Positions 4,455 through 45,100 of a stretch of 64,000 nucleotides of DNA are shown in pieces. How positions within the stretch are numbered: position 1 is the first letter of the stretch; every line of letters starts with the position of its first letter. The position numbers and the translations under genes are program-made. The notes beneath the pieces are model-generated. The model did no database searches. It was given only the letters and a program-made list of their open reading frames with translations, and was not told the DNA's origin. This DNA is from Theristus sp. LFF4_11 (taxonomy: Eukaryota; Nematoda; Chromadorea; Monhysterida; Xyalidae): the NCBI GenBank assembly GCA_030248135.1, contig JASANC010000628.1:1-64000 (forward strand). Direction: 5' to 3'.

Positions 4455-7400
4455 CTAGTTATGATACGAGACAAACGTGAATCGATTGCGCACCTCGCTG
4501 TTAATCACGGACGCGATCATGCGCGGTTCGGCCATCGCGCCGACGCCGCGCTCGCCGCACATCAGTTGCTTGTCGATGGCCGGTATCTCGCGGTACTGCA
4601 GCAACGCCTTCAGCACCTCCAGCTGTTTGTACGTCAACGGGTGCTCGCACATGTACGTGTTCATCGCAGGCGCAAAGTACACAGGCTTGCTCGGGTCCCA
4701 TGCGCGCGCCTGTGCAGACGGGCAGTTGTTATGAAAAGTGAGTTAGAGTTGATGATGGGCAATTATTGTAATTATCTACCAGTAATTATCCGTGATTCTG
4801 CTATATAAGATGATCGTTTCCCTGTAATCTGGGTTGTTCTCCAGTCCAATAAATCGCCACTCTTTTGCTGTTTGAAGTTTAGTGTCGGAGATGTGAGCAG
4901 TTTTTACTCCAGGCTGTTTCGACAGTTAGACCACAGTGCCCAGCCCACCTATAAACAACACACTGGACTTCTGAAATTCACCAAATCAACCAGCTAGCGG
5001 ATCAGATAGACAGAACAGAAACCACAACAGTGCTCGACCGAGGTTTGAAAAAACACGAAAAGATTGACAATAAAAAACACGACAAAAATGACAAAAAATC
5101 AAACCAGGCACGTCAGCAGGTTGTCGCAGATGCCATTTGCGAGTTTCGCCATCGTGTTGGCATCGAGCGGCGCAATCAGCAGCGCATCCGCCCATCTGAA
5201 AACAAAAAAAGCACACACACCGCTTGAAAGAACGCAACAGTGAACTTATTCAATTATCAATTTTTTTTCGATGTAGAAAATCAAACAAAACATTCCAGAA
5301 AAAACATGTTGCGCATTTACGAGCCCTCCAAACATCACTTCACGGCGCTGTACTTTCTTCACATTCAAGAACCACACGTCCATCACCTCAAATGAAAGCA
5401 CGCACGCACTTCATTCATGTCGGAAGCAAGCCACGGTGTAAGTACACAGCAAAGTCTTTCAGTACGTCCTTCATTGTAGCCGCCCAATCAGTGTACTTCA
5501 CTTCACACTGCAGCCAACCAATCAGTGTGCCATAATCATATACGGCAAACCAATCAGTGGTCAAGAGGCGTGCCAAAACAAGCGAAAGCAAATGAAAATA
5601 TGTGAAAGCCAACCTTCTCAGTTCGATATGCAAAACGGGATCGCCTCGTTGCCGCCAGCTCTGCCATTCGTGCGCGTCACAGTACGTCAGAATGTCATCT
5701 GGTATCTGAGAGCACCGAAACTTGCAAAATATGGAAATTCCGTGACAAAACTAGAGCCTTTTTGTAGCCTCTTTAACACAGTAACGCCGCACAATCACAT
5801 GCAGTTGACCTCTAAAGTCTAAATTATAGTGAATCAGCGTCGTCACTGGTGATCACGTGATGCATGCTTTCTGAAATTGCTGTGGGGGCGGTGTTTTGTT
5901 TGCATAGAAAGCACGCATGCACGTAATCACGAACCAATCAAATGATTCCCTATAATTTAGAGTTCGACTGTACGTACACACGCGCGCGCGCTGAACCATT
6001 TCACTGTAACAGTGCTGCGCGATGAACAACAACAACAACAACTGCAACAGTGCTAAACGTAAATCATCACACTGATGCGATTTGAAGATCATTTCGTGGA
6101 TTGACAACCATTCAGGACGTTTTCAGATTGAATTTCCCGAAAGATCAAACTCAAAGCCAATTCAGTTACACTTCCATTGAACAGTGATCGTCTTTCTGCA
6201 ATAGCAAATTTCTTATCAGCATGCATCGATTGCATTTGATTTCAGAGAGATGCTGATTTAGAAATGTCAAGAAAAAAAAAATTTCCTATTTTTTTTCTTA
6301 AAAATTTTTTTTAATTTTTTTAATGAAAGTTGTTCAGAATTTTTCAGGGAGTCCGAATATCACCATCTGAGGAGCCACCGACTTACCATATGACCCCCAC
6401 TCATATGGGAGGAGGGTGAAAATTTCAGACTTGGTTTCGGCGACCCCATTTTCCCACCGACGACATCACGTCTCGTGTTTTGCCTCTCAATTCACCTCAA
6501 ATAACACGGAAACAAGTTCAACAACAAACCGGTGTGATCATGCTGACGACACGAGGCGAAACAGCAACGAGCAACCAACGAAGTTACGCTTGCAGTGGCA
6601 GACAGTGCAATTTCGACCTTTCGAGATCCTGAAAAACGATGCGTAAATGTGAGTTCTCTTTTTCTATCTCACCTTAGCGGCATCGGAATTTGTTGAACTA
6701 GCCTTTGCGACGCTCAAGTACTTCAATGCGCGAGTCGATCATCACTCACCAAGGCTGAAAACAGTCGATAAATCAATCCAGAATACCACCTGCAGCGTTG
6801 AAGACTAAGTGACAAGGTAAAGTCAAAGAAAATTTTTGTTGAACTTTCGAAAAATTATGCCAAAAACGGCATTTTCAGGGCACATTAAAGAAAAAAATTC
6901 AAAAATTTTTAATAAAAAAATTTTAAAAAAATGCTCATTTTTTTACTTTAAAAAAAAAATTAAAAAAAAATTTTTTTTGACCGTTACATCTCCATGCTGA
7001 TTGGTTGTATAAGCAGCAGCAACGGGAGCGCAGTCAATCAGCAGCAAGTTGCCCGGCCTAGAAAGATTGTCGATAAGAAAAAAACGCCGTACATTTTCTT
7101 CGAGGTTCACAAATCGCAGCGCGTTTTCGGTGGCCACCACCCGAATGGCGAGCCGCTCAACGCCGCAGGCCTGTCGCAACGCGCCAATCAGCGCGCCCAC
7201 TTTGATGCTCGCCACGCTGCCCGTGCAGCCAAGCACCTGCAAGAGATTGGAAAGTTGTGTTCGCCATTTCTCCTTTCTTCATTTCTAAGCTGATTTTAAC
7301 CTTTCACGTTCAGCAACAAGAGATTTTCTCGCATCTCCGTTTCACAGTTGCACGTAGATTCATTCAGTGACTTGTGACAAAACCTTTTTCTTTTCAGAGT

Positions 7401-12600: not shown

Positions 12601-15600
12601 TCACATTTTCAGCATAAAACAGCACAGACACAGAAACAAAGTCAGCAAGACACAGCACGTGAACCAACCAAAAATTACAACAACAACAATTGACAAAATT
12701 CACATCGCATAGGGATAATCAAGTGCTGGCAACACTCCATTCAGAAACATGACCTTTTCGGCGTTCTGAGTTGACAGACGAGATCGGCTGTACACAAACA
12801 CCTGCCTGGCTTCAGAGAACATTCGTTCGCTTGCCACGCTTGTGGGTAGCGGTGCCAGGTATCTGCGCGCGATTGTCGATAGTTTGGGGTATTTAGACGA
12901 GTTCAGCCGCCAAAAGTCTAGCATTAGATCACTTTTGTCCGGTTCGTCGATAAAATCATCCGACTCGTACATATTCATTTTGCCGCGCAGTTCGTCATCA
13001 AGACTGGATTCACCTGACGGGTTGGGCGGTCGCGCAGCGTGAAACTCGATGCCTCCGTAGAGGCCAGTCGATTTCTTTTTTGGTTCGGGCTCGCGTTCAC
13101 TTTCGTCATCGTCGTTGTTCGCGATCTCGGATGTATCGTCGCAGTTTGTGGGCGTCTCCGGTCGTTTCAAGATTTTCTTTACAATGTGAAGTAGTTCACA
13201 ACGAATCGCGCCTTCATTTTCGAAGACGACTGCAGTATTCTTGAATCGCGGATCAACGTACGTGGCCATGATGTTGGATTCGTTGTGGAAAAGCGCACGG
13301 AAGCGTGTGTCGATGCTGGTCAGCAGCGTTTTTTTCGTCGTACCAATGCCACTCGCATCGACTTGTTCGATGCGCTGCTTCATTGCGCAAACGGCGGGCA
13401 ACAGCATTGAAATGGATTCGTCGTCTCGTGGATTCGTCGTTGGGGGGGGGGGTTATCGGGTTTTAGGGGATCACGGCACCCCCGCACACACCCACGGTAA
13501 CACACGTCGCTAAAATCGCTGGTGTTCTGGGGCTCACAAAAAAGCAACTGTTTGACAGCTAACTAAATATGACCAACGAATATGGCTGATTTCAAAAAAA
13601 CTGCTATTGTTCATCAAGAACGTCGGCCAAAAGCTGGCAGCCACGTTTTTTAAAGTGGACGATGCTGCACATAAGTTTACCACTCAAGACAAAAGCAGTG
13701 AACCATTTACCATTGAACAGAACACTAAACTAAAGAAACGCTCACTGATCACATGTCAAATGCACAACAACAAAACCAACAAAGCACCGAAACAAATTTG
13801 TCAAACCATTGAACAGCTCTGAAACGGAGGAATCAACTGGTTAATTCGCGGGTCTCGGCCATTCCGGCCGGATCCGGCCGGATCCGGCAAAATTGCGCCG
13901 GAATCCGGACCGGATCCGGATCCAATTTTAGGCGCCGGAATCCGGAATCCGGACCGGAACCGGCTCCATCCCTAGTATCGTGTCGCGGTCTCCTATTCCC
14001 ATTGTTGTTGTTGCATTGAAGTGATACATTATTCAACGTCAATCATGAATATTTGTCGTCTTTCATCCGGCTCTTTTTGTCTGTTTCAGTTTCGACGGAT
14101 CAGACGAAAGTGAAACCGACGACCTGCTGGCCATCTACGGTGTCGTGCGTGACCTCGTGAACGACACGACTGCTGTGCACAGCTGCGTGAAAGAGCTGGT
14201 CAGTTATGGTGTCATTTGTGCTTGTACAGTCATATTTCTGTGTTATCAGCTGATTGGTTGATGAGCACGTGACGCAGGAATTGCAGTGGAGGCGGGGGAA
14301 CAGCACAGAATGCATGCATCACGTCACATGTACACCAACCAATCAGCTAGTTGCATATGATATTGTAATTGACTGGAGAAATGTTTTTTTGGACTGCCGT
14401 GGACGGCTAACAACAGACAACATTACAATAGATCCACTGTCCTTGTGTATGTCCTTGACTATCGCCTCTACATCAACTTTGAAACATTCGATCTGGAATG
14501 TTTTGTCTTCTTATTCTCGATAACAAACGATTCGTTATAGAACAGCAGAAAATAAAATTTTCATGCGCTGAAGGTTTATTTTATGCAAGACTGAAATGCA
14601 GATTCCTTTTAAAATTGATGTGGTGCAGATTGGGACCGTTTTGTTTCAAGCCAGAAAAATCTCACGAAACACATCCTAAATCAGAGACGTCTAATTCTGG
14701 GCGATTTTTTCTGGTTAGACCTTTTTTCAAACCTAGAAACCACCAGAAGAAACAATGTCTCATTGATTCCAATTCCATGTTTTTCTTGTTTTGCTTGTAG
14801 ATAAGCGAGGTGAGCGGTGAGACTGTGCACGACTTGGTGGAGGAGATGCTGGAGCAGGTCTGCAACGCAGCTCGAGACGGACCACGCATTTATTACAACC
14901 GATACGACAGCGATGATGATGACTTTGGCGGCGGTTGGAACCTTGGCGGTTTGTGTGCTTGCAGTTGTAGTTGTGGAATTTTGAGCGGCTGTTTGTAAAG
15001 TGAATCAATTTAGTTAATATACAGTTCATCTGGAAAATATATGCAACATGACGATTGACCAGCCAATCAGCGCTGAGAATGGCTCATGCATGACTAACCA
15101 ATCAGCGCTGAGAATTGCTCATGACTAACCAATCTGCGCTGAGAATTTCTCATGATCAACCAATGCGCTAGTTGCATATTTTAGCGAGATAGACAGTAAC
15201 TTGTAATTTGTGATGTACAATTGATACTTTGATTGCTGTGCATTGTGCAAATGTTCGTTCGTCTTTCATTCAGACATGTACGACTACGACGACGAATGTT
15301 TGGATGTTGCTCTGAACGAGTGCTCCGTGGTCGTGAAGAGGATGAAGATCGATAATCGCAGAATGAGCGTGAGTAGTGAGATTTTTTGAATTGATACGCA
15401 CCACTGATTTGTGTAAAGGAGATTGTTTTCAGTTAATACGGGCGCCAAACAAGTTTAGAAAAGTTAGTGGCGGGCGCTGCATTCACAAAATAGTAAACGA
15501 CGCACAGCTATTAAACACGCGTCATGGACGCTACCATTCCAGATCACTGTACAATCGAAAGTTTCATCGATTCGTTCTCTTCAGATCCCAAGCGTACCAA

Positions 15601-18600
15601 AGAATCGCCGTGACAAGAAATGGCTGCCCGCACCTCGGCCGGGTCCGTCGCAGAAGCGAGGCCGGGGCCGACCACGGAAGAACTCAACGGAATCATCCAG
15701 TTATTACGATTCGAAACGAAGACGAACAATCTCACCGCCGCTGCACCAGTTCAAGGCGCCGAAATCGAAAGTCAAACTGAAGCTGAAACCAACGCAGGTA
15801 TGTTGGATCGCGCACCTTTTTTTGTACGCGGGCGAGCTGATGAACTGCTGAAACAGAACGTCGTTGGTTGGTGCTGATTGGCGGATTTGGGTATTGTTTT
15901 TTACTTTTGTAGCTCTCCAAATCAGAATTTCGAATTCACGCGTCTGCATTTCCAATCTCTATGCGCGCATTGAGTCGCACAACCGAAAAGAAAAGATAAA
16001 ACACGTATATCCAGCAAGATACTCAATGCTGCGACATAGAGTGAGTGGTGCACGTTTTTCAACTAGAAACAAAAAAACAGTAAAACATACTATAACAAGC
16101 GACAACAAACGATTTTGAAACAAACAAACAAAAAACCGTGCAGCCGCCGTCGCCGGCTCCGGTGGCGCACACGAAGCGCACGCTGTCGATCGACAAGCAA
16201 CGCCGCCAACAGGAGCTACTCTCGCAGCAGGGACTGATCGTCCGCAAACCGGGACCGCGGCGACGGACGCGACCCAGCCACCAGCACCACCACCAGCGCG
16301 AGTTCACGCCGCCGCCGCCGCCGCCGCCGCAGAAGGCGAAGCCGAAGTCGAAGAAGATGCCCGAGCTGACGAAACAGTGGGCCGCCGGCATGCCCGGCCT
16401 GAAACAGCAGACCGTGCCCGGTAGGTTTTATCTTTTCGTAAAGACCTGCGACTCAATGCGGTTGTGGACCTCAAAGGAAACTAGTTTTACGGTGTATGTG
16501 GTAACTCAGAGAATAGCCTAAGTGACCCGGTCTTATTTAGGGGACTCGGATCTCTTTGCCAATTTTGAATTCCCGCGTCGTGCATGAGACTGCTTACCCA
16601 TCTATGCGCGCATTGAGACGCGGGACCAAAACAACAGTACTCGGCCATGGAGACGTGCCGTTAACGTCCGTCAGCAGACGTCCGTATGAACGTGCCTCAA
16701 CACTTGCCGCACCGTATATTCAGGCATGCCGCTGCTTCGCCGCAAGACCCAGCCGGGCATGCCGATGTTGAACGAGAACTCGCTGATGCGTCTCGGTGCG
16801 GAGCGCAGCGCCAAGGAGGCCAGCCCGGCGCGGCCGCCGCCGCCGCCGATCGCGAGTTCGCACGATCGCAAAAAGTGGGCGTTACGCGCACACCAGCAGA
16901 GGGGCACCTCGGAGTTGCGGGGTCACCCCGCGGCGAGGGCAGCCGCGCCGATGCCGTCCGCCTGGGTGGCGTGCGAGCCGATCGCACCATCGAAAAAAGG
17001 TTTTCGGTTTTTTTTCTTGTCGATTTGATTTTCTGACGTCTGTGCATTTTAACTTTTTGCATGATGGTGATTTTGAATGAGGGTTTTTTTTGAAACGACT
17101 GTGATGATCTCACACTGGTGTTGTACAACAGTCGCAAACACGCACGTCCAGATTGTCAACTCGGCTGAAATGTTGGAATTTATCGTTGTTGTTGTTCATT
17201 GCCGGCCGCTGCTGTCGCATCAGTTTCGCAGCCGTCTGGTATATTAAAGAATGAAATGGTCAAGCGCCAAACTAATCGTAAACACCCAGGATAACAGTAA
17301 GATACCCGCAGATAAGTCAGCGACATTTCTCGATCACCTTTGGGTCTTTTTGAGGAATTAGTCCGGTGCTAGTCCAGGAGCGCTTTATTGATCAGCAAGC
17401 TGCTTTATCCTGTGTGCGCGCATGTGTTTATGTGTGACTGGCGCAACCACAAGTGCACTGGTCTTCAGATTGCCGACTTATTCATTTCTTCTCTGTTGAT
17501 TTGCAGCAATTGTGGTGGTTCGGTCAATTGTTTCTCAAATCACCGAATGAAAAAAATACCATTGAAAACACAACAAACCCCGCACAGGCGGTGTACCATT
17601 GCGAATGACGCGCGCGAGTCGCGGTCAGCCGCTTGCGGCGCCCGCACCGGACGCTCCGCCGAAACTCGCGCCGAAGGCGCATCCCGGGCGTCCCGCGGTC
17701 GCCAGGCCCGCGCCGCCGCCGCAGCCGCGGATTCGCCCGCTGCAGAGGTTTGTGAGCTTTTTTTCTGTTTTCTGTTGTGAGTTGTTATTGTTGTTGTTGG
17801 TTCGTTTCAACACATTCCCGCCGCTACGTGGTGGTGTTTTACCAATTTGGTGGCGGCTGAGGACTCTGAGTCTGCATAACGAGCCATGAAAGAACAGGAA
17901 TTCCGAAGGTTGCTTTTTAAGCCACGGCTCAGCGAGGGAAGCGTTCAAACGCTACAGTCAGTTGGTGTGTGATTTTGTCGAGTTTTTCTGCCGTTTTGTG
18001 CTTACATAATGACAAAAAGACCTTTCCGGCTTGACGACCTCCATCCTGCCGAGGGCGCACACTCAAAACTCGAAACTCGTAATGCGCCACCACCGAACAC
18101 TTTCCACAAAATTGCCTCACTGACGTTGATTCGCAACGCAACGATGGTCATTAATGGTGGACTTTCATAATGATGGCCTTGGTGCAATAATCGTCCGGAT
18201 TCTAGTTTAGTCCCCTCCCCTCGCTCTTTTTTCCAGGTTACCGGCGAACTTTCAGCCGCCGAAACGACCGGAGAAACGAAAACCGCCGGCGTCGTCGCCG
18301 CCGCCGCCGCTCGCGAAACACCTGAAACAGAAGACACGTTCGGGCGTTTTGGTTTTTTATGTTTTTTCTTCTCCTTCGGAGTGCAAGTCGTTTACGGGGT
18401 GACACTAAAAATACTGCTTTATTGAACTTGAACCAATATGCGTCTGTATCTGTATCGGGCGTGGTGCCACAATAATTATAGTTTTCTTCTGGTTCTGCGA
18501 CTCAATGCGTTTGCAGACGTTTGAAACGACACACAGTTCCACACTTGATGCGGCAACTAAAAATTGCCCCAGCAGGGACTCAGTTGGACAGGGACTCGGG

Positions 18601-21600
18601 ATTGCTGCAGCAATTTCAAAAGTCCTCGTCAAGTAAAAATATGCTCATTCATCTGGGCGCGCATTGAGTCGCACAATCAAACGTAGATTGTTGAAATGCG
18701 TGTGAAAACATGGTTTGAATCAGAAAACAAACTGAAAATGTCATCTGGTTGTTTCCAGCAGTGAAAGATGCATCTGATGATGAGAAGCAACTGTACATTT
18801 CGTCGCGCGGCCGTCGAACGGTCGTTCGAAAAATGGATGGTTGGTTTCAGTTTTTTTTTGTTTTTCTTTTTTTCCAAACTGACCGTCACAACTATAAAAG
18901 AGTCGGAACGATAAAACACCAGTGAGCGACATTATCAAATCAAAACTCATTCTTTATCTCAAACTCAAAACTCATCAAAACGAAATTTTATTCCTTCTCA
19001 CACAGAGAAAAGTCTGTACAAGGAGCCGGACTCGGACATCGAGGAGTTGCTGCGTAGCTCCGACGACCAGTCGGTGCACGACGACCGCGACAGCGACTAT
19101 CGCGTCGAGGAGGACGACGACGACGTCGATCCGGAGGACCGCGTCGTGGCGGCGGCGTCGTCGACGGTGCCGAGAGTGGACGCGAAGCGCACACCGCAAC
19201 GCATGGCCGACCCCCCGTATAGGTGCGAGAAGTGGGGCTTTGCGAGGTTCGCAGTGGCTGTTGGTTTGATTTCGATGTTGTTTGTCCAATTTAGTACCCA
19301 CCCTTCCGAGCTCCCGGCACACGGCTTGTGTTTTGTGCTTGTTGACCCGTGTGGATTATGGAAATTAGTTTCGGCAATTCGAAATTCCTTACAGCGTTTT
19401 CACATGTAGAACATCATTTCAAGACGAGACAATTGTAGAACAGACCTGACCAGACGTTTTGAAAGCCGGCACGCTGATTGGCTGACTGTTGTGCGCTGAT
19501 GATACGACCAATCAGCTGTTTCGAAGAATTGCTACTTTTCTCCACTTAGCACTCAGCCATCCGCAAATTACACAACAACGAATTTGCTTTCAAGTCTGGA
19601 CTGGAGGAAACAGAAATTTGTCATTTGAGGGGCACTGATGAAGCAACCCCTGTTTTGCATCTGATGTTGGCGAAGCCGAAATACACAGTACCAGAACCAT
19701 CCCACAACTTGGTTAATTTGTTAATCCGTTCAAGCAAAGCCGTGCGACATTGTGTGTGATGAAGCATGGTGTGCATTATGCCTCACGTCTCGGTCAGGCG
19801 TGACGGCCAGTGCACCGCATTCCGGTCCGCTTCCACCGCACCACGCTCTCACTCGAACAGGACGCGTTTTTTTCTCTCATTTCTCTCAAACAAACGAATA
19901 TTTCAGCGACAAAAAAGTCGACGGCGGCATGGCGCAAGACGAGATCGAACTGTTGAAACGCAAATATATCCGCGAGCAAATCGTGCAAACGCGAAAGCTC
20001 ACTGTGACGGAGCACGGCGGCGACTTCGGACAGGTCAAGTGGGCGTTGTCGATCGTGATCAAGTGGAACTGTGCGCTGGTCAGTTGGCGAGGCGGCGCCA
20101 AACGTGGCGTCTTTTTTGTTATTCAATGGGTGGCGTGTGGCGTGGTGTGGTAATATTGATTTTATGGCAGTGAATGGTCTCCTTTATTTATATCTAGAGT
20201 CGATTTCTATATTGTATGCAATTCGCTGATTGGTTGATGACACCGGGGGGGGTACAATTCCGGCCCGCTAATTCCGGCCTGAAGAATTCCGGCCCGCTCA
20301 TTCCGGCCCGAAGAATTCCGGCCCGAAGAATTCCGGCCCGGAGAATTCCGGCCCGGAGAATTTTCGCCAGCACGAACAATATTAAACCACACGAAGTGAT
20401 TTTGGTAATGAAATAATAAAATAATAAAATAAAAATATCGATGTTCACAAGTTACAGTGTATTTTCAATGATGTTCGTTCTGTTTGCTTTTTTGGAAAGT
20501 GAAACCTTTTGGGAAAAAGAAACTACAAATAAATTTGTAAATTTTTTTATCATGAACAGGATTTGTGACCCTTTTACCTTATCAAAAAGGCTTGGCTTAG
20601 GATTAGGAAAGCACAACACCTACAACAAGTCACTGCAAGCAAGTTCTAAACAAAAATAAAAAAATCACTTGAGAATTTTTACCAAAAATCACTTCGTGTG
20701 GTTTAATATTGTTCTTGCCGGCGAAAATTCTCCGGGCCGGAATTCTCCGGGCCGGAATTCTTCGGGCCGGAATTCTTCGGGCCGGAATGAGCGGGCCGGA
20801 ATTCTACGGGCCGGAATTTCGCGGGCCGGAATAGTACACGAGCCGATGACACCACGTGAAGCATGCGTTCTGTGCGGGCAGAGACTCCACCTCCACGACA
20901 ATGCTGGCATGGATAGCATGCGTCACGTGTGCACCAACCAATCAGCTATTTGCATGTGATATACGATAGACTGCCACCGGATCATCAAGCCGATTTTATC
21001 CGGTGGAGCTCCACACGGCTACACACTGTTTCTGTTGTCAACATTGACTGCATTTCAAAAGATTCTATCCGAGTTTTTTTATCTTTCTCTAGCTAGCTAG
21101 CCAATCTATTTATTAATTTTATGTTTCTCTAAGCGCAATTTCCACTTGCACTGCACACACACTCAGGTGAAAAGCGCGGTTGTGCCGAACTGCATATTCA
21201 CGTTCAACCTCGACTGCAGTCGGTTCGACGGCGGCACCGAATTGAAGGTGCTACGATGCGCTGGATGCATTCGCGCGAAGGCGAATCTTGGTCGGGTGTT
21301 TTGTGGTTTGGTGTCATTTTTGATGGGGTGGGATGATTGGGCCATATTCAGGTTCAGGCTCTGGTTTCATTGTGCCGTTCGGCAAGCATCTGAGTCATTG
21401 TAGTTGTCCAGCTACTGGTAATTTACAGTCTGGCAGTCAATAGTATTCGTGGACCGAAATGTGCAGAGTAACACGGAGAATACAGACCTTTGTCGTTGAC
21501 GGATTTTTTTGTTGCGTTGTTGTTCATTTATGATTAAGATTGAATTGTCGCAGTTTATATCGATATATCGAATCAGAGAATTTGTAATTAATATCGATGT

Positions 21601-24600
21601 CAGTGTCGATGCATCTTCTCGACGAAATGCTGATTCATTGGCTGACACGAACCAATCATATCGCGTGTTGACCAATCAGCGCGCTATATTGTGACTTTTG
21701 TTGTCAAAATCTGTTTTCTTGACTGTCAGGTCCCGCAGGCAAGTCGCGCCTCGTGCCGACGGTGCTTGTGCTGCACGACCATTACGTCTCGAATCCTGAC
21801 CTGCCCGACAGCAAACATTTCTGCCATCAGTACGAACTGGACTTCTGTAGTGAGCCGAAAGTGCTCGCGACTCAGTTGACCAGGTTGAACATGTTCGATT
21901 GTGCTACCTTTGGATTCGTAAATCTCATTCATTGGGTATATACGTGGGGCACTGGGGTGGGGATTGTTCGGATGAGACGCAGTTGACCGGGGCGTTGTTG
22001 GCTTGGTTGGGATAGTAACTACCTGTCCAGGGCGTTATTGTCTGGGTGGGGATCGTTTCTCAAATCTTTTGCTAATCAGACTGAACACACACCACATCAC
22101 ACACACACGCGCGCACCTCATTAGGCGGCCATACGCAACAATAGTCTACTGTCCGCTGATTGACGGGGTTTTATAGCTCAGAAAGTGAATGAACAAACCA
22201 AGCAGCCAATCAGGGACGCCGTTGTGGTTGTTCACCTGTGGTCCCTAGAGTAGCCGCACAGGGTGTTTCTGTCCACCACCGAGGTGTGGTGGTCTGTGTT
22301 GTCATCGATTACCACTGGCGTAATAATCGGTGACAACCATACGACTGCCAACCCAAACCGTGAACGACCAGAAGGAATGAAAAGCAATCGAATCTGATTG
22401 AAATAACGCAAAGCAACTTCATCTCGCCTTCAATGAATTGACCAATCTTTCGCCACTCTCAAAGGTCGGCCATCCTGAACCACCTCGGTCCGGACGCCGG
22501 CTCGATGGCGCGCAAGAATCTCCGGCGTCGCAAGACGGCCACGGCGAATCAGCCGACGCTGATGCAGCTGGTGGCGTTGGAGTTGGAGCGGCAGTACGCC
22601 GATCAGCCGTCGGTGGCCGCCCGCATTCGCAAGGAACTGCCGGATCTGCCCGGACTGGCGGCCGACGGGCCGGAGGAGCCGGGCGAAAAGGTGCGAATGG
22701 CGATGGAAAAAACCCGGTTTTTCCCATGCCATCGCTAGTTGTTGATGTTGCTTTTGCTTTTGGTGTTTTTGAATTTTGTATTTTGAAGAGCACAGGTGCG
22801 GTGCGTGTGTGATGTTTTGCGGGTTGAGGATGCTCAGTGATCAGAACCGGATATATGGCCTGTGGCATATAGCGCGCCATCAGGTTTTGATTCTTCAAAC
22901 CGTGATACTTTTTTGAGAAAATTGTTAGTTTTTTTGTTTGATCACGTCAAATAAATATACAACAGTCGAACTAAAATTACGGACAACTTAGCAATTGGAC
23001 TCACACAATTGTGCGTGTCAGTCGGATGCAGCCGATCAAATCAACCGAGCGTGCCAGATTCAAATCATTCACTGCGCCAAGAGCATATTTTAGAAATCTG
23101 GACGGTTTTATTGATCGAATTGATCTTTTAGCCGTTGACCGCGTTGGAGCGACGCTGGGCGGCCGAAGTGAAAGAGCTGCCCGATTTCGGACCGGTCGAA
23201 TGGGGCTGGAATGTTGCGTGCACGCATAAAAACCAGGCGGTTGGTTTGGAATGGATTGTAAATGGTGGCCACAATGCTTGCGGTCGAAATTGTGTTTTAT
23301 GTTGTCGTTTTTTGGAGCCATCTATTTCATAAGTTCTGCGAGCGACTCGATGCGCGCATTCACAGTGCTTACTAGTGTCCATGAAGACGTGCCTTTGACG
23401 TACGTCGGCATACGTCAGTATGAACTGGCCTTTAGACAACAAAAATTACCGTTTTTCACCGATTTGTTTTTTTGTTTCCAGCTATACCATAGCCGCCGTC
23501 ACCCAGGTGTCATGTACACGTTTTTCTCGTGGAAGAACTATCGTGCAACGGACGTGTACAAACGAGTGAAATGCAATGGCTGCTTCAACATGAATCAAGT
23601 ATACAAGAAAAAGGGTACGTGTTCTCGCGTCTCGTTGGAGAAAAGCGCTTAAGAAACAAAACATTTAGCCACCAAAAAATTCGCAGTTTCCAGGTAACTG
23701 TGGATAAAGTTTTTTTTCCAGTTCAGTTGTTAGCTTCTCGATTAGTTAATTTGCTTTTGGGAATGTTTTTTCAAAAAACCCTGCGGTATTGAAGTGGAAC
23801 CAAATTGACTAGCAAATACATTGACAGCACCTTCGATTCTATTAAATTTTGAAAAAGTCTAATATGTTGACAAATTAATACCAACCGATTCTACAGGCTT
23901 TCCGTTTGAACATCGGAACGTTCTTTAGTAGTACCTCAACTTCGACTTTCTTATCGCCCACTTGCTCTCAATCAACGTTGTTACAAGCGCTCTTTTTGAA
24001 TTCAAAACTTTCCCGCTGTTTTTTTTTGCAGGCGAGGAACAAAAAGAGCTGCCAAGCCTGACGATCTACAACGACCGCTGGCGCAGTGACCCCGACTACC
24101 CGGAGCATTTCTGCACCGATCTGAGAGCGCGCCAAAACGACGCGCCGAAGGTGGCCGCGAAATTCGTGCGCAGGTTTGTGTGCCGGCGGTTTTGTGTTTG
24201 AGGTGTTTCGGGTACCACTGCCACTGCTCGAATGAAGCGGCATGCACTGTTATAGTACTGGTTTCTGTTTATGTTACGCGTGAATTTAGCGTGCGTGAGC
24301 TTGTTGCGGTGCGTGAAATCTTAGAATTCAACGGTTAATAGGGCTAGTGAAAAATTGTTGATTTTCCATACCCAAAAAAAGAAACATTTTTCATCGCATC
24401 CAACCCAATCAAACAAAAGAAAAAAGTACACCGTTACAGGGTGGTGATCGATTGGATGCGTCAGTGTGCGGAGCCGAAGACGGCGGAAGAGGCGGTGGAA
24501 TATGGCCGACAGCAGATCAGACAGCGCTACGGCGACAACCCGGAGCTGATGAAGAAGATTCTGATTCAGTGGTCCGAAGTGCAGGGTACGGCTGGTTGTG

Positions 24601-27600
24601 TTGTTGTTCGGATTCGGATTGAAACAGTTGGTGCCGCAATGAGCACCGTGTTGTCATCGATACGAATAAACTTTTTCAATCGGTTGAGTGCGCTGATTGG
24701 TTGTTGCGCCGAAGTTGCTGTCATTGCGCAAACCTGTCCGTGTTCAGTACAAGTTTGGCGCCCAGAGCGAAAACACGACATTTCGTCTGCATGAACGCGA
24801 ACCGACGCTCTGACCTACTTACTGGTGCACTGCTGCACACTACGGATTGGTCGTGGTCGTGACAATTTGTTGCAGCCAATCAGCGAGTGGAATTTGAATT
24901 TTTTTTCACGTTTTTCCAGGTCGTCACATCTTCAACGACATTCACTATGGCCGGCGATTAGAAACGCCCGGCGGCACACTGACGCCGTTGGTTGGCGCGA
25001 AAATGTTTGCGTACCAGAAAGGGAACACGGTGAGCGATCGAAAAAATGCGAACAAAAATTGTTCCTCATTTCACTCCAGTCGATTCAACCCCACCGCCAC
25101 ACGACGCAATTCAGTCAATCACAAACAACGTCTTTTGCGTCCGTATTTATTTACCAGGAGGCTTCATGATTCAGTTTTCGATTAATGCGTTTCCGCCGTC
25201 GAAGCGAAAATTGGAATTGAGTCAGTCAAGTCAGTTTTATTCTGCGCAGTGCACGGCATAATACCAGACAAGTGTAAGACACCAAGCGAAAACTGAGACA
25301 AAACGATGCAAAACAAAAAACAAGAACACCGCGCACTTTGCAGTCGGCCGGTCCGAACGACACGACGACGACGACGGCGGCGCAGATCGCACAAATTCAG
25401 CAGCATTTATTCGAGCCGGACCCGCTGGACGAACAGTGGACGTCCTGGTTCACGGGCACCGCCGGCGAGCCGGACGCGCAGACGCATCGGTTGAGCGAGG
25501 CGGCGGCCACCGAGAAGTCGCCGAAGGGGCGCGCGCGACTCGACAGCGACCAGCGGACGACCGGCTGGGATCCGGACGGCGATCGGTTTGAGAGCTGGGG
25601 CGGGGGGCACTTTGTTGTTTTTGTCTTGTTAGGGGCAAGTTGTCAATCACTATTGAAAAGCTGTTAAGCAAAAACAGATTACTTTTTGGACGAGTGGCGG
25701 CTGCACTGATGAGATTAACCCACACGTTCGTGCGTTTGCAGCTCTTAAGAATCGAAACGCACTCTTGTCTGTCATTAGTTATTATTGGCTTAGGTTTGCC
25801 TCTTTGTAGCTTCCCCTTGGCCCGACCAGGGGTTTGAGAAAAATGCCAAACTCCGGTGGCGACCGGACAGTGCTCGCTAGCGCGGTCGATGACTGAAGCA
25901 ATGCAACCAATGATTTGAGAATGCTTCTTTCACTGTTTTTTTCACTGGTCTTGCACCTTGCTTGATCAACCAATCAGTGAATGAAACAGCCTGTCAATCA
26001 ATCAATCAATCAATCAATCAGCCAATCGATCAATTGCAGCGACCAAGTGCTGCCGCCCTCGTCCAACTACGGTCCGGTCGAGTGGGTGACGCGGTCCGGT
26101 ACGGGCCAAATCCGACCGTGGGCGATCAAACGGAGCACCGTATGGCCGGGCGTCACGTTTCTGTTCAAGTCGGTGAAACCGGTGAAGAAGAAAGGCGAAA
26201 AGTCGGTCGTCGAGAGCATCGATCTCGGACTGCCCTTCCACGTGCAGTGCCACCGGTGCTACAAGGCGGCGCAGAAACAGCGACAGGGTGCGTCCGGGTG
26301 TTGTTTGTTTTGGACATTTGGCATTTCGTCAAAAGTGGAAAGCAAATTGACTGTTTATTGGTTTGTGCGAATTCATTGTAGTGTGGGTTTTCGGGCACCC
26401 CAACAAGCATTTGGTGAATCGTCTTCTGCATTTCCTTCAGATAACTTGGTTCATTGGGCAGATTGTGACACCAACCAACCAAATGCTTATGCAAGAGCGG
26501 CCACTAATTTTACCTATTCACGACACCTCACCTGCACAGATGAGCAATTTCCAAGACGTATTGTGGATTTATTCAAACGTGTCCGGACTAACGTGACGTC
26601 ATTTTATTTTAAAACGCCCGTTTGTCAAAGTACAGGCACTAAAATTTCAGTTTGGTGCGACTGATTCGACATTCACCATTTTTTACGGGAAGAAATCGGC
26701 TAAACGGATAGTCTGGTTTGCTGTGAACGACAAGCGTATGTTTTGTGGCACATGACGTCATTTCAGTGGGACACGTTTAAAAAAATAGGCCATACCAGCC
26801 TTGCGCAACAAGCAATTTCAGAGGGAAATTGAGGTCCTCCATAGACGCCGAAATTCAAATTCACAAAAAACACCCAGAAAATTCCAAAAAAACCAAATGC
26901 GCAGAATACAAACGCCTGCACGGGCGGACGCAGCCGCACGCGAAGATGATACCGTACATCAAGATCCAGCACAACCTCTGGATCGACAACCCGGACATTC
27001 CGGACTACGATCACATCTGCATCGGCGAGAACATGCTCGACGATGAGAAGGGCGAGAATCCGAGTGATCTCGTGCACTTCAGGAACAAGGAGAAACAGTG
27101 CGTTCGGTGGGGTCGGTGGTGGAAATTGGAGTGGTTTGTACAGTATGACCGAATATAAGGCAGTCCTTGTATTCTCCATCACAGCGGGATCAGTCGCAGA
27201 CCAGGAGTGGTCTTTGCCGTTAGTCGACTAGTGTCGTGAGTCCTGCCTGCGCAATAAAGTTCAGAAAACAAAAAATTGGAAAAAAAATTCAATCCCTCCC
27301 CAACGCTGACTTGGTCGCTTCAACAATTTTGAATTGGCGCATCAAGCAGTGCAACTGATTTTCCATCTGAAAACATGCACTGCGACCCTCCCAAAACCAG
27401 ATCGAAACATTGTATTGTAGAACTCTAAATTATAGGCAATCAGCTGATTGGGTAGGTGATCACGTGATGCATGTCCGGCGCAGAAAACACACAACGCATC
27501 ACGTGATCAGATCACCATCATCAACCAATCAGCTGATTGCTTATAATATGTACCTCGACCGTACTTCAACAAAAGTTCTCCGAACCAGTATAAATATTCA

Positions 27601-30144
27601 CCTGAAGTTCTGATTTTAAACCGGGACGGTCACCTTGCCTCTGCAGGGTGCGTCACGCGCGCGCCGTCTCCGACAAGGAGCTGACGTCAGTCGGCAACGA
27701 CTGGCGACACGACGTCGAGATTCTCTGCGCGAAATACTCGAACTCGCCGGAGTTGCTCGAGCGAATCGCGAAGAATCTCATCGAGTCTGCCGAAACGTCG
27801 GCCGTGCGCATCGCCGAGTCGCTGTTTGAGCAGTCGGAACGCCAACAACAACAACAACAACAACAACAACAGCAAAAGGCACAACAACCACCACCACAAC
27901 AACATCAACAGCAACAACACGTGCAACAACACCAACAACAACAGCAGCTCGTGCCGCAGCAACTCCAACACCAGCAGCAACAGTCGACGGCGCCGCCGCA
28001 GTTGGAGCCACGGCCGAAACTGTCGCAGGCCGGGCAGCCGAAGAACGCGCGGCCGCCGCCGCTGCAGCAGCAGGTCTCCACGGCCAACATGGCTTCCAAG
28101 GTGAAGAATGTTGGTTTGATTAAACCTGTCACTTTTTTCACAGAACGTGGAAAATTGGATATGAAAAGAATGGGGTGTTTGAATAATAAACCGGCAAAAT
28201 ACGCGTTCGCTTGAACACACCTTTTTTTTTTAAAAACGGTCGGACGCGCTCGGTCGGACGTGTCCGGACCGGAAAAATGACGTAGCTGTTTTAATGGCCC
28301 GTCCTTACTTGACCGTGTCGTATGTGACCGTACGTCAACGGCAGCACGTCCTTGGACGGTAGTATGCTCAGGAAACAGGAGACGTAACGTGACGTGCGGC
28401 GCATACGGCGGCGTGGACGGGTCTTGAAAAAACGCGTCGGTCATGTAGAGCAACCTCAGTTTTTTTTGGCTGATCCATTCACGTGTGACAAAATACGTGA
28501 TGCGCTGAACGAAACTGCAGTTCTGGTGCCTGTGCGCGACAAGCTGGTGGTTTTGACAAACCAAATGACGTCACTTTCTTCTGACACGTTCGTAAGCCAT
28601 CTAGCGCGAACGACCTGTAAATCGCCCTCACGTGACTGATCCCCAGTTCAAGAAGTATCAATTCATTTTTTAAATCAAATAAAAAAACCGTTTGTTTCTT
28701 CACTTCAGTCGATCCGTTCCTCCGGCCGCGGTCAGCACAAAACGAAAGTGCAACAGATGAGTCTACTGAATCAGACGACGCCGCCGCCCGCTCCGGCGTC
28801 CTTGCCACCGTCGCAGCAGCAGACGACCGCTAATCAGGTTTGCGAGAAAAAAATGGAGACAATGGTTGATGGAGACCGTTCGGTTGGGAGAACAATGTGG
28901 ATTTGCTCGCGAACCTTGTGCTTTGAATCGCCCATTCTCCCGCATGAACGGTCAACGCAGTCAATCCAAAGCCCATCCATACTGACGTACGCTGACGTAC
29001 ATCGACGTCCATCAAAGCCAGCGATGCGTCTCCATGGGTGGTATGCAATAACACGAGACGTGCCGTACATACGCACGTCCCTATGGACGATCGTGTGCTG
29101 AATCACGAGACCTGGCCTGACGTGACGTGCCGTCGTATGCACACACGTCAGCATGGATGGATGCGGCGTCAATAATCATTTTCGTGTCGAGACCACGCGA
29201 ATACAGCCGCTTATATCACACAGTTGGCGCAGCCAGCGGCCACCAGCGCGACGTCGTCGAGCGCACTGAACTCGGTGTTTCCGGCGCAGCCGCAGATCGA
29301 ATGGGGCCGCCCGCAACACGGCCTTTATGGGATGGCGTTCGAGTACGCCAGCGCCGCGACGGCCGGCTTCGATCTGACGCAGCACCAACAGCAGCAGGTT
29401 TGGCGAACGACTCGTGGTGTTTTTGTGGTTTGATTTCGTTTGGCGTGGTTTTTTGTTGTTGTTGAAGTGTAGCTCATGGGTAGTCAATCGGTTGAATGGC
29501 TGTTTTTTGAATTGGGCTCTCCGTTGATTGAATGATCCTGCCTGCCGTGCAAGATGCAGCCAGATTTAAACGCAAGAACGCAGAAATTGGATGTGGTTTA
29601 CAATAGCTTTTGATCGCAGCTGATCGGTTTTTTGTTGTTCGTTCATAGCCGCTATTACTGTGGAAAAGTGGTCATATATGTTTTTAGTAAGTTACAGAGC
29701 ATTCATGTATGATACACACCTACTGCACAGACTAAATCTATCAGATATCAACTAGCTGATTGGTCGGTGTCGGCGTACAACGAATAATTGGCGAAACGCC
29801 TAACAGATTTACCAAATAATTTGATTGCATTTGCATTGGTGATCACGTGATGCATTCTGTGCAAACTGTGCTTCCACAGCAATACATACAACACGTGACC
29901 ATTCATCAGCCAGCTAGTTGGCTATGTTCTAGAGTTAGACTGCAGCCAAAATCCAACCAACCGAACATTCGGTGCACAGGTGCTGAACCAGGATTTCCTC
30001 CTGCAACATTCGGGCGCCTTCCGAGCCCCGCCGGTGTCGGCGCACCAGCAGAACACGACAAGCAGCGCACAACAACAACAACAACAGCAGACACAACAAC
30101 GCTTCGTGCAAGCGCCGGACTTCTCAATGTTCTTTCCGGGCTGA
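9630..30144 (+). CDS. Unrecognised 1,931-residue nuclear-type protein with AT-hook and three tandem Cys/His modules
   Basis: Thirty-one exons, all junctions in phase: 9630-9798, 10126-10783, 11064-11190, 11412-11465, 11904-12109, 14090-14198, 14801-14933, 15274-15368, 15585-15797, 16144-16420, 16724-16999, 17588-17747, 18237-18337, 18759-18839, 19006-19222, 19907-20078, 21167-21290, 21730-21883, 22465-22690, 23132-23239, 23482-23614, 24032-24173, 24440-24585, 24920-25029, 25344-25585, 26040-26287, 26905-27097, 27647-28100, 28709-28837, 29224-29397, 29980-30144. Residues 1-500 are mostly acidic and disordered. An AT-hook (RGRGRPRKN) lies near 541-550, then Pro-rich and acidic stretches. Residues 996-1670 hold three units, each with [DN][FY]G[PQ]V[EK]W, CxxC, a PDxP[DE]..HxC block and a helix opening YxDxP-like. 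A poly-Gln/Gln-rich region follows (about 1690-1740). I know no family with this layout; FLYWCH or WRKY/GCM-type zinc folds are the nearest idea, weakly. Nuclear DNA or chromatin binding is inference. Confidence 0.85.
11636..11795. mobile_element. Palindromic MITE, family M1, diverged, intron 4 of the three-module gene
   Basis: Contains AATCAGCTGATTG and GGTCACGTGATGCATGC on the left, and the inverse blocks ending TTCGACTG on the right. The left terminus is degraded. Confidence 0.6.
12285..12390. repeat. Repeat family M3 fragment
   Basis: Shares GCCAATTTTGAATTC and a ...GCGAGCATTGAGTC end with the copies at about 16445-16640, 34545-34720 and 52425-52630. It lies in intron 5, just left of the hAT insertion. 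Confidence 0.55.
12448..13974 (-). mobile_element. hAT-superfamily transposon remnant with 8-bp target duplication
   Basis: The element begins TAGGGATGGATCC and ends with the inverse-type TCCATCCCTA. Both flanks carry the identical octamer GTATCGTG (12440-12447 and 13975-13982), the hallmark of hAT insertion. Just inside both ends are clusters of CCGGATCCGG-like words. The only coding region is the C-terminal part of a transposase on the minus strand. It sits wholly in intron 5 of the three-module gene. The perfect duplication suggests a fairly recent insertion of an already deleted copy. Confidence 0.93.
12700..13407 (-). pseudogene. hAT transposase C-terminal fragment
   Basis: An open frame of 235 codons carries the hAT C-terminal dimerisation region: a YPKLSTIARRYLAPL-type stretch followed by SVASERMFSEA and a downstream LS..NAEKVMFLN segment, as in ZBED and hobo/Ac-type transposases. 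Upstream (residues 20-60) is the VDPRFK-type segment common in these proteins. The BED zinc finger and most of the RNase H-like catalytic core are missing from the element, so this is a non-autonomous relic rather than a working transposase. It is not an exon of the host gene: it lies on the opposite strand, inside an intron. Confidence 0.85.
14227..14375. mobile_element. Palindromic MITE, family M1, intron 6 of the three-module gene
   Basis: Starts CAGTCATATT and ends TAATTGACTG. It contains ATCAGCTGATTGGTTG and the inverse CCAACCAATCAGCTAG, with CACGTGACGC and GCATCACGTCAC inside. Confidence 0.65.
15022..15196. mobile_element. MITE family M2 with internal tandem repeats, intron 7
   Basis: Ends are inverted (CAGTTCATCTGG left; GCGAGATAGACAG right). 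The middle is three imperfect tandem copies of a unit of about 31 bases containing CAATCAGCGCTGAGAATTG. A second copy lies at 46961-47120. Confidence 0.7.
16445..16640. repeat. Repeat family M3 copy, intron 10
   Basis: Begins around GCGACTCAATGCG and ends around GCGCATTGAGACGCGGG, with GCCAATTTTGAATTCCCGCG inside. The inverted CTCAATGCG / CGCATTGAG ends suggest a MITE. Confidence 0.6.
18480..18680. repeat. Repeat family M3 copy, intron 13
   Basis: Inverted ends GGTTCTGCGACTCAATGCG and GCGCGCATTGAGTCGCAC enclose unrelated sequence. This pair shows the M3 termini most clearly. Confidence 0.6.
20197..20973. mobile_element. Palindromic MITE, family M1, interrupted by a foldback element (intron 16)
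   Basis: The two outer parts, 20197-20244 and 20845-20973, join into a normal M1 copy: a GCTGATTGGTTG segment on the left, and CACGTGAAGCATGCG plus a second arm ending CCAACCAATCAGC and TAGACTG on the right. The 600-bp insert between them carries its own target duplication. Confidence 0.75.
20245..20844. mobile_element. 600-bp foldback element with 9-bp target duplication
   Basis: Inverted arms of about 145 bases each lie at 20255-20395 and 20690-20835. The outer part of each arm is a run of about seven copies of a 15-base unit with core AATTCCGGCCCG; the inner part (ending near TTAATATTGTTC...) is unique sequence. The flanking 9-mer GATGACACC occurs at 20236-20244 and 20845-20853. A 9-bp duplication with long inverted ends suits Mutator-like elements, but no transposase is present, so class is inference. 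Confidence 0.8.
26559..26796. mobile_element. Short TIR element H, copy 2 (uninterrupted), intron 26
   Basis: About 238 bases, continuous across the site where the copy at 2562-3710 is broken. Both ends share the AACGTGTCC motif in inverted orientation and a GTGACGTCA-like core. It lies between the CxxC exon and the HxC exon of module 3. Confidence 0.75.
27413..27564. mobile_element. Palindromic MITE, family M1, intron 27
   Basis: Near-symmetrical copy: AACTCTAAATTATAGGCAAT then CAGCTGATTGG and GATCACGTGATGCATG on the left, and GCATCACGTGATC, CCAATCAGCTGATTG and TTATAAT on the right. Confidence 0.75.
27843..27960 (+). repeat. CAA/CAG trinucleotide tract coding for poly-Gln
   Basis: Within exon 28 of the three-module gene. 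The run encodes an almost pure Gln stretch interrupted by Pro, His and Val. Mixed CAA and CAG codons make it less prone to slippage than a pure repeat. Confidence 0.85.
29730..29943. mobile_element. Palindromic MITE, family M1, diverged, intron 30
   Basis: Left arm carries CAACTAGCTGATTGGTCGG; right arm has GGTGATCACGTGATGCATT and later CACGTGACC, CAGCTAGTTGG and AGAGTTAGACTG. The right end is 37 bases from the acceptor of the last exon (29980). Confidence 0.6.
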
Positions 30145-41586: not shown

Positions 41587-42126
41587 AAGAATGAGTCAAC
41601 TTATCCACGGAAATAAAAAAGAATAATTGTAAATTATTTGAAATCGAAATGAAAGGAAATTTGAAGTTTTTTATGAAGCTGTTTTTCCAATTAATGAATC
41701 CAAACAAAAATATATGTTGCATGGCATCCACCGTAAAAAAACATGAAATTTATTAAATCATAGAATGGATTAAATCATTAAAAAAAAGATTTGTCGCTTT
41801 TCATTTCTGCGGTCATTTTAGGCATTTGCGCATGTAATTTGCTTGATTTTAGAACTCATGATGATTATCAATATTGATGCGAAATTATGAGACAAATATT
41901 TATGACTCCACAAACAGATCTAATTTGATCAAAAAGCACGAAGTGTCCGCGGTGCGCTGTCTGTTGGTGACAGTCGCTAAGACGCTAAGAAAGCAACACG
42001 CGACGCAGCACGCAAATCGATCAATATATTCATAAATCACCAAGAAATTATTGTTGCCTGCGGGCTTGTCGTCGTCATTGCTTCTTCGGCAAATCGAACC
42101 GAAAAACCACATCGATCCACGAACAA

Positions 42127-45100
42127 ATGGCCGCCGCGAACATTCCATCGGTGCGACGAAAACTGAAGAACGTCGCGTACAACTACACGCCGACGCAGGT
42201 GAAGGTGCGCGAGGCGACCAGCAACGATCCGTGGGGCCCGTCGAGCTCGCTCATGTCCGAGATCGCCGATCTCACCAACAATGCGGTGCGGTTTTTCATA
42301 GTTTTTTTGTGTTCATTTTGTGGAAGCGCAAGTGCGCAGCAACCGCTTGTGTCTATTTCTTGGTGTTGTTTTTTTCTTGTTTCAATTTGTGTGTTTCAAA
42401 ATTGAATCCATAAACGCTCTTTTTGGCTGCATCATCGAATCAATATCAATCAGATTCCAAAACGGTGGATCGGCTTTGTTTCTTTATTAATTTCTGTTCA
42501 GTTCGACTGTCTGTACTGTGCTTTTTTGAAGAAAACTGTGCGTTTGTGCGTTCACGGCCTTTCTTTATCTCTCCTTTTCTCGAACTTTTTCTGACGAAAC
42601 ACCCGGCGTTTCTGTTCTGCCTCAGGTTGCGTACACGGAGATCATGGAGATGCTCTGGAAGCGCATCAATGATCACGGCAAGAATTGGCGACACGTTTAC
42701 AAGAGTCTCGTCTTGCTCGACTACCTGATCAAATGCGGCAGCGAGAAAGTGGCGCAGCAATGCAAGGAGAACATTTTCACCATCGAAACGTTGAAAGTGA
42801 GTTTTTTTTTGCTGGTGGCAGCACAGGTGTGGACTGGAAACGTTGACTGATTTAGAGTGAGTTGATGGAAGACAAGACAAGAGTAGTTTTTTTTGTTGAA
42901 GCACATGATGTCCATTCGATTCCACGTGTTCGAAAAAGTTTGCGTCCGCGAGATTTTTTTAAAGTTCTGCAAACTCGATGAACGGAACTCACAGTTGTAA
43001 AGTCCGTTTCACTCGTGCTCGATGCAATGAAATCCAAAATCCATTGAAAACAACGGAAAAATTGACTGTTTGTTGTTTATCGCATGCCAATGGTCCAGTT
43101 TTGATTGCAGCAATTGTTGTGAAGTACTGATCATGTCTATGTTGCGCAGAACTGCTCTGCGCAACTGAAGACGTACGCATAGACATAACTAGAGCAGAAA
43201 AAAAGCGCGAGATAACAATAATACCACCCATCCAAAAGCAAAAATCCGTTGTAATGCTGTGATCTCCGGCCGCAGGACTTCCAACACATCGAGGACAACA
43301 AGGACCAGGGTCACAATATTCGCATGAAGGCCGGTCAGATGGTGCAGCTGTTGAAAGACGACGAGAAACTGAAGAACGAGCGAACGAAGGCGATGATGGC
43401 GCGCAAACGGTTCGCGCAAAATAACATGGCCATTTCGTCCGATGGGCAGACGCACCACACGCATCCGGTCAGACGACGCACGGAGCGCAGCTGTGAGAGC
43501 CGGACGGGGGGGGGCGCTTTTGTTTCCGTTGTTTTGGTGTTGCGCGACTGTTTTTGATGGAGAAATCGGAGAGATCGTTTTGCTGTTTTTTCTTTCTGTG
43601 GAAATGCACGTCTTTTTTCCCTTCCGAAAGACGACATTGGAGGATAATGAGAGACGTCATTAGAGGATCATGAAAAACGTTATTGGATGTCATCTCACAA
43701 TCACATTCCCGGGGTATTTTCTTTTTTTATTTGTCCGCGCGCCGGTTCCGGAAACCCGAAAGGTACCAAACTCCGGCGGAGACGGGCAATGCTGCCCCGA
43801 GCCCAATTTTACCCTCGGCTCAGGAGGGAATAGACCATTAGATGTTTATTGGTCACTCTAATTTTCCACGAGTATGTCTTGTCCACAGCGAGGTTCGAAC
43901 CCGGTACCTACAGAACTGTAGGCCGAAGTTCTACCGCTACGCCACGGACGCGACAGGATCAGTTTCACGCGCCGCAGTCTGCCGAGCAACTAAAAAACCG
44001 GACCAGAAAACTTCTGCTACCACCAAAATTACAATGTCCTAGAAACGTGATTTCAATCCGCAATTTTTTTCCGTTCTTTTTGCAGCGTCCGAATTCGAAG
44101 AGGCCCGTCCAACGTCCGCTGGCGAGGAGGAGCTGCAGCTTCAGATCGCGTTGGCCCTCTCGAAAGAGGAGGCGGAGCGCGAGACGGAGGCGCGCAAGGG
44201 CGACGACGTGCGTCTGCAGATGGCGTTGGAAGAGAGCAGGCAGTCGCTCGGCGGCTCGTCGACGGGCGGAGTCGCCGTCGGGGGCGGAGCGACGGCGTTT
44301 GACGACAGCGCACGCAGCAGCAGCCCCGTGCCCGGCACGTCGCAGGTTGGGTGGGGGGGGGGGGGGCGGAGTTGTGGGAAAACATTCATCACGTGATCAG
44401 CAACCAATCGGCTGATTGTCCATAATTTACAGTTCGACGGAGACCGATTGTAAAGTGAACATCAAGCCATGCCGACGCACAAACAACATTTTCAAGGTCT
44501 CTAGCGCCGCATCGATTCCATTCGATCAATCCATTTCATTTCCAATCATTCTCTCAAATCATTTCCAATTCCCAATTCCAGTCCGCTCTCGACGACCTGC
44601 TCGGTCTGACCGCTCCATCACCAGCGGCCAACGACCCGTGGGCGGGCCCGCCAGCAGCAACAGCAGCAGTCGCCTTGCCGACTCAGGCGACCTCCTTGTC
44701 CAGTAGCACCGCCGATCCGTGGTCGCCGCCGTCATATCAACAGTCGCAACAACAGCAATCGATGGTCGCCAGCAACACTGGTGCGCCCGTGTACCCGGAT
44801 TTGGGCAGCCCGCACAACGACCCGTGGGCACCGCAGCAGCCCGCCGCTCAAACGCAACCGCACGCTGTGCCCCGCCATGAAGCGCAACAACCGCCCGCCG
44901 CTGCCGTGATTCCGCCTGCGGGTGAACGGCCTCTGGGGGAGGGAGCAGTTTTATGAAAACTTAGTGGTAGTTCAATAGTGCCAAGAAACCAAAAAACGAC
45001 AGAAATTGTCTGGGAATCTCAATAATGATTTTTTTAAACACTCAACTTTTTTCCAGCCAGCAACGATCCGTGGGCGCCGAGCGCCGCCGGGCCTCCAACG

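Follow-up and report, generated by a model that had tools for sequence, protein, structure and literature searches.

The window, the whole 64,000-nucleotide stretch analysed here, is the start of contig C390 in the assembly of Theristus sp. LFF4_11 (159 Mb in 3,744 contigs). We observed a gene on its forward strand at 9630-30144, which in a manual splice model has 30 exons and a single open reading frame for 1,898 amino acids (Table 1). Splice sites were picked by eye and reading frames were joined without transcripts; all 29 introns in the model are of the GT-AG type and compatible in phase. An earlier note on this DNA gave a product of 1,931 residues, which is close, differing from the model by 33 residues; its interval 20000..28000 agrees with the extent of the repeated units (∼19.9-27.9 kb), but the whole gene occupies 9.6-30.1 kb.

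Table 1. Parts of the modelled gene, in order along the window
Feature	Position	Strand	Basis
Four 5′ exons, acidic N-terminal region (aa 1-386), putative start codon	9630..12109	+	splice model, composition
Exons 5-7, further part of the acidic region (aa 388-504)	14090..15368	+	splice model, composition
Exon 8, AT-hook core RGRPRK (aa 531-536, bases 15663-15680)	15585..15797	+	splice model
Exons 9-13, basic Pro-rich region	16144..18839	+	splice model, composition
Exon 14, acidic stretch preceding unit 1	19006..19222	+	splice model, composition
Unit 1, first part: GGDFGQVKWALSI	19907..20054	+	splice model
Unit 1, FTF strand and CxxC (CAGC)	21167..21290	+	splice model
Unit 1, NPDLPDSKHFC and stretch after it	21730..21883	+	splice model
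Region after unit 1, with QYADQP	22465..22690	+	splice model
Unit 2, first part: LPDFGPVEWGWN	23132..23217	+	splice model
Unit 2, YTFF strand and CxxC (CNGC)	23493..23614	+	splice model
Unit 2, DPDYPEHFC and stretch after it	24032..24173	+	splice model
Region after unit 2, with RYGDNPEL	24440..24585	+	splice model
Exons 23-24, linker joining unit 2 to unit 3	24920..25585	+	splice model
Unit 3, NYGPVEW through CxxC (CHRC)	26040..26287	+	splice model
Unit 3, NPDIPDYDHIC and stretch after it	26905..27097	+	splice model
Region after unit 3: KYSNSPEL, start of Gln-rich tail	27647..28100	+	splice model, composition
Final three exons: C-terminus rich in Gln and Pro, with the stop codon at 30142-30144	28709..30144	+	splice model

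The protein as a whole is not strongly acidic (D+E 14.2%, K+R 13.4%), and its description in the earlier note as a large acidic protein holds only for the first 504 residues (D+E 26.5% in aa 1-275 and 22.7% in aa 276-504) and for aa 876-960 (31.8%). The tail is rich in glutamine, with 34.6% Q in aa 1661-1790. The AT-hook named in that note was found as one RGRPRK core at aa 531; as a Pfam scan of the first 874 residues gave no family at E ≤ 0.1, this core is the sole basis for the assignment.

Several other elements were seen in the window. A hAT transposase fragment (12703-13407, reverse strand; Dimer_Tnp_hAT, E 1.9e-14) lies in one of the gene's introns, on the opposite strand, and a closely similar hAT-like reading frame is found near one of the paralogues described below, that on contig C159 (L042, ∼4710-5231). 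The first intron of unit 1 carries a fold-back element (20252-20854) with arms at 20270-20403 and 20685-20818, 134 nt long, 97% complementary and built from tandem units of ∼15 bases, CGGGCCGGAATTCTT; a reading frame in L034 (contig C942) resembles its translation. Neighbouring genes contain an ENTH (epsin-like) exon (42112-42288) and a TCP-1/cpn60 chaperonin exon (53868-54029), and a flavoprotein-type exon at 4476-4712 (reverse strand) scored slightly below cut-off. In the genome, TTR-52 (PF01060), a family not known outside nematodes, is over cut-off at eight places, which indicates a nematode. The SL1 spliced leader was not found in the whole genome by an exact 22-base pattern, nor with the Rfam model among the 50 of 43,697 candidates that were scored.

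Three Cys/His units and the RYYR-CCHC family

The middle of the protein carries three copies of the arrangement [DN][FY]G[PQ]V[EK]W ... CxxC ... PDxP[DE]..H[FI]C. The leading block starts at aa 984, 1180 and 1454, and the segments from CxxC to HxC occupy aa 1025-1067, 1218-1259 and 1515-1566, the second Cys being separated from the His by 36, 35 and 45 residues in units 1, 2 and 3; QYADQP (aa 1130), RYGDNPEL (aa 1308) and KYSNSPEL (aa 1621) come after them. All these elements, including the gap lengths, had been read by the earlier note and are present in the splice model. Local alignment of unit against unit gave scores of 98, 74 and 76, with shuffle means of 24-28 (z of 18.2, 11.2 and 9.8), and the real value was reached in none of 1000 shuffles. 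Shuffling the whole protein 5000 times produced the pattern C..C(30-50)H[FIL]C in four cases, and in no case three times over. The presence of three C-C-H-C units in one product, claimed earlier, thus agrees with both the splice model and the shuffle tests; judged by sequence similarity, which is far above chance, the three units are homologous to one another.

When aa 874-1657 were scanned, the sole Pfam family at E ≤ 10 was PF23674, RYYR-CCHC (E 0.0031; 17.9 bits against a cut-off of 27), with a match covering unit 3 from its CxxC onward. The three units scanned singly gave no Pfam match at E ≤ 10, and among five paralogous units PF23674 was listed for one, at 13.3 bits. In the organism's own genome PF23674 had 21 places at E ≤ 10, four of them over cut-off, two of which are identical in translation.

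The profile comparison drew on eight RYYR-type domains, selected visually and by motif on contigs C3346 and C1529 (L022, L023, L024, L026, L030, L033 and two domains from contig reads). The remaining PF23674 places were left out, including L029 and L028, the latter showing CxxC and HFC; L025 reads the same as L024. PF23674 was the top match for all eight domains and was over cut-off for four. With hhalign, where each E-value here and below refers to a single comparison and not to a database, the window units alone matched these eight domains at 94.8% (E 5.1e-8, 49 columns) and a set of eight window-type units, made by adding paralogous units to these three, matched them at 95.2% (E 2.9e-8). 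The alignments printed for the eight-unit profile pair CxxC with CxxC and HxC with HxC. The C-C-H-C columns are in register in all 18 aligned domains (8 window-type, 2 bridge, 8 RYYR-CCHC); since these domains were picked by eye and motif, the common C-C-H-C is not independent evidence.

The two groups have in common an aromatic strand, CxxC, P.....(N/D)P and HxC, in this order, and in most members read a leading [FY]G.[VA] block. They differ in that most window-type units have a PD.P loop, a longer gap between CxxC and HxC, and a WG.S....P.AL..S stretch, which resembles a stretch in the two bridge domains described next; the units of the window itself have this stretch in a shorter or changed form.

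Bridge domains, paralogues and a shared intron

Two domains on contig C1529 combine traits of both groups. They start with a stretch like WG.S....PLAL..S, a window-type trait, and also contain the RYYR-type parts YRC..C and GYWMTDP...HFC. In hhalign these bridges matched the window-type units at 98.2% (E 4.7e-14) and RYYR-CCHC at 97.3% (E 2.1e-11); in Pfam their top match was RYYR-CCHC, with 23.3 and 13.3 bits, both below cut-off. In 100 column shuffles per comparison, made with the sequences as they stood before two small corrections, the highest values reached were 19.0, 17.2 and 22.2, while the unshuffled profiles scored 45.1, 82.7 and 61.6. A control with the reversed window-type profile gave 4.4% and a score of 19.1.

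Because of the profile-profile comparison and the bridging domains in the same genome, we characterize the window units, on the strength of their sequences, as a divergent three-copy subfamily of RYYR-CCHC lying below the Pfam cut-off. The statement of the earlier note that no named domain fits the full pattern is superseded by this sub-threshold assignment.

The same modules were found at two further loci of the genome, on contigs C113 and C159. The C113 locus has three units, each with all four ligands, and in addition RGRKP, which is AT-hook-like, the stretch RYADNAQL and a tail rich in glutamine. Over the compared exons it is near-identical to C3460, a single query matching both at 98-99%, and by this similarity the two are perhaps haplotypes. 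C159 has two units in which the four ligands are complete; of a third unit the first half is present, and no second half was seen between it and the contig end. Weak matches in the genome were found on C3415, C347, C445 and C166.

All ten units of the window and bridge types that were read have a phase-1 intron between CxxC and HxC. The phase was determined by script for eight (the three of the window, the three of C113, the first unit of C159 and the first bridge) and by eye for two (the second unit of C159 and the second bridge). Among the eight RYYR-type domains one has an intron, elsewhere and in phase 0, and seven are single-exon. The shared phase-1 intron gives further support to a common ancestor of the window-type and bridge units. 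A tree of eleven units separated nine of the window type from the two bridges; it did not recover the branching order among unit positions or the order of duplication.

RYYR-CCHC exons also occur in clusters with a spacing of ∼0.5-7 kb (L046 and L047 on C3346; L048-L050 on C1529), which would be either many-finger genes or tandem gene arrays.

Outside the genome, protein searches found no relative among 8000 candidates scored at E ≤ 0.001 and among 9 and 236 at E ≤ 1, in collections presumed to be poor in nematodes; viral and genome contigs gave none either, these collections presumably holding few or no nematode proteins. Searches by sequence against solved structures returned nothing in one case and chance-level matches in two others (best E 0.46 and 0.69).

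Proposed function and alternative readings

We think it fairly probable, going by the domain content of the predicted protein, that the gene product is a large nuclear regulator in which three divergent RYYR-CCHC copies and an AT-hook contact DNA or chromatin. Each of the three fingers in the middle of the gene, ∼80-115 residues long up to HxC, would bind a single zinc ion with its CxxC and HxC, and the stretch after each unit is probably helical. The three fingers, the AT-hook and the basic Pro-rich region could together make multivalent contact with DNA or chromatin, and the acidic N-terminus and the Gln-rich C-terminus may, from their composition, recruit the transcription machinery. Of the DNA- or chromatin-binding role suggested in the earlier note, the nuclear part is plausible, but DNA binding as such is an inference.

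A competing possibility is that the modules are fingers for protein-protein interaction, for example in a scaffold of a chromatin complex, and that the AT-hook alone touches DNA. The strongly conserved W..NPDLPDY.H.C is rich in acidic residues and proline and not in basic ones, and the acidic and Gln-rich regions would fit a scaffold; on the other hand, many tandem zinc fingers bind DNA, and we regard this possibility as somewhat unlikely.

We give less credence still to a placement of the modules in the WRKY-GCM1/FLYWCH superfamily with derivation from a Mutator-like transposase. WRKY and GCM have a general C-C-H-(H/C) order, and the units follow the same succession: first a strand with Tyr/Phe, next Cys-Cys, then His-x-His/Cys at the C-terminal end. 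With FLYWCH (PF04500) they loosely share the aromatic strand, the Cys-Cys and the final His pair; however, the FLYWCH domains of this genome, read at nine places, end in HxH, whereas all units read have HxC. Against a profile of these places hhalign gave 0.2% for window-type units, 4.1% for bridges, 2.0% for RYYR-CCHC and 5.6% for RYYR-CCHC and bridges pooled, the small size of the FLYWCH profile making this a weak test. No WRKY, GCM or FLYWCH family was listed for the units by Pfam at E ≤ 10, a search in which HMMER filters drop most weak matches. FLYWCH was not supported, and the loose likeness to FLYWCH and to WRKY/GCM seen by the earlier note was not borne out by these comparisons. As to a transposase origin, judged by contig overlap alone, none of the nine listed MULE places is on a contig with modules (C390, C113, C3460, C159, C3346, C1529, C2210), while FLYWCH and MULE do co-occur on C753 and C280.

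Other candidates were considered and set aside. The CW-type zinc finger, brought to mind by the NPDP-like block, had no Pfam match, and the pattern proved to be that of RYYR-CCHC. Zn_ribbon_4 (16.7 bits, cut-off 30.3) and DUF4674 (12.5 bits, cut-off 28.6) each matched part of a single C113 unit and were not common to the units.

It is very unlikely that the 1,898-residue model wrongly joins exons of at least two neighbouring genes: the splice sites were indeed hand-picked, but the introns are uniformly GT-AG with matching phases, and C113 repeats the order of AT-hook-like motif, three modules, RYADNAQL stretch and Gln-rich tail. Least credible of all is an unrelated new fold resembling RYYR-CCHC in its C-C-H-C only, as the absence of single window units from the Pfam matches might suggest, given that the profile matches extend beyond the ligands and beat all shuffles and that the bridges connect the window-type and RYYR-CCHC sides.

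The name RYYR-CCHC, also sought as RYYR with CCHC and nematode, was absent from the open-access literature, to which the search was confined, subscription journals being outside its scope; open-access uses of RYYR alone concern other things, as far as titles and the beginnings of abstracts tell. No precedent for a three-copy RYYR-CCHC multi-finger architecture was found in the same literature. The divergent RYYR-CCHC subfamily described above adds no new kind of zinc fold; together with the bridges and the common intron it would broaden PF23674, a domain already catalogued. Tentatively, very large chromatin regulators may have arisen as a small family in one nematode lineage, each with an extended RYYR-CCHC finger fixed three times in a set order, and three fingers with one AT-hook would make clear targets for finding out what RYYR-CCHC binds.
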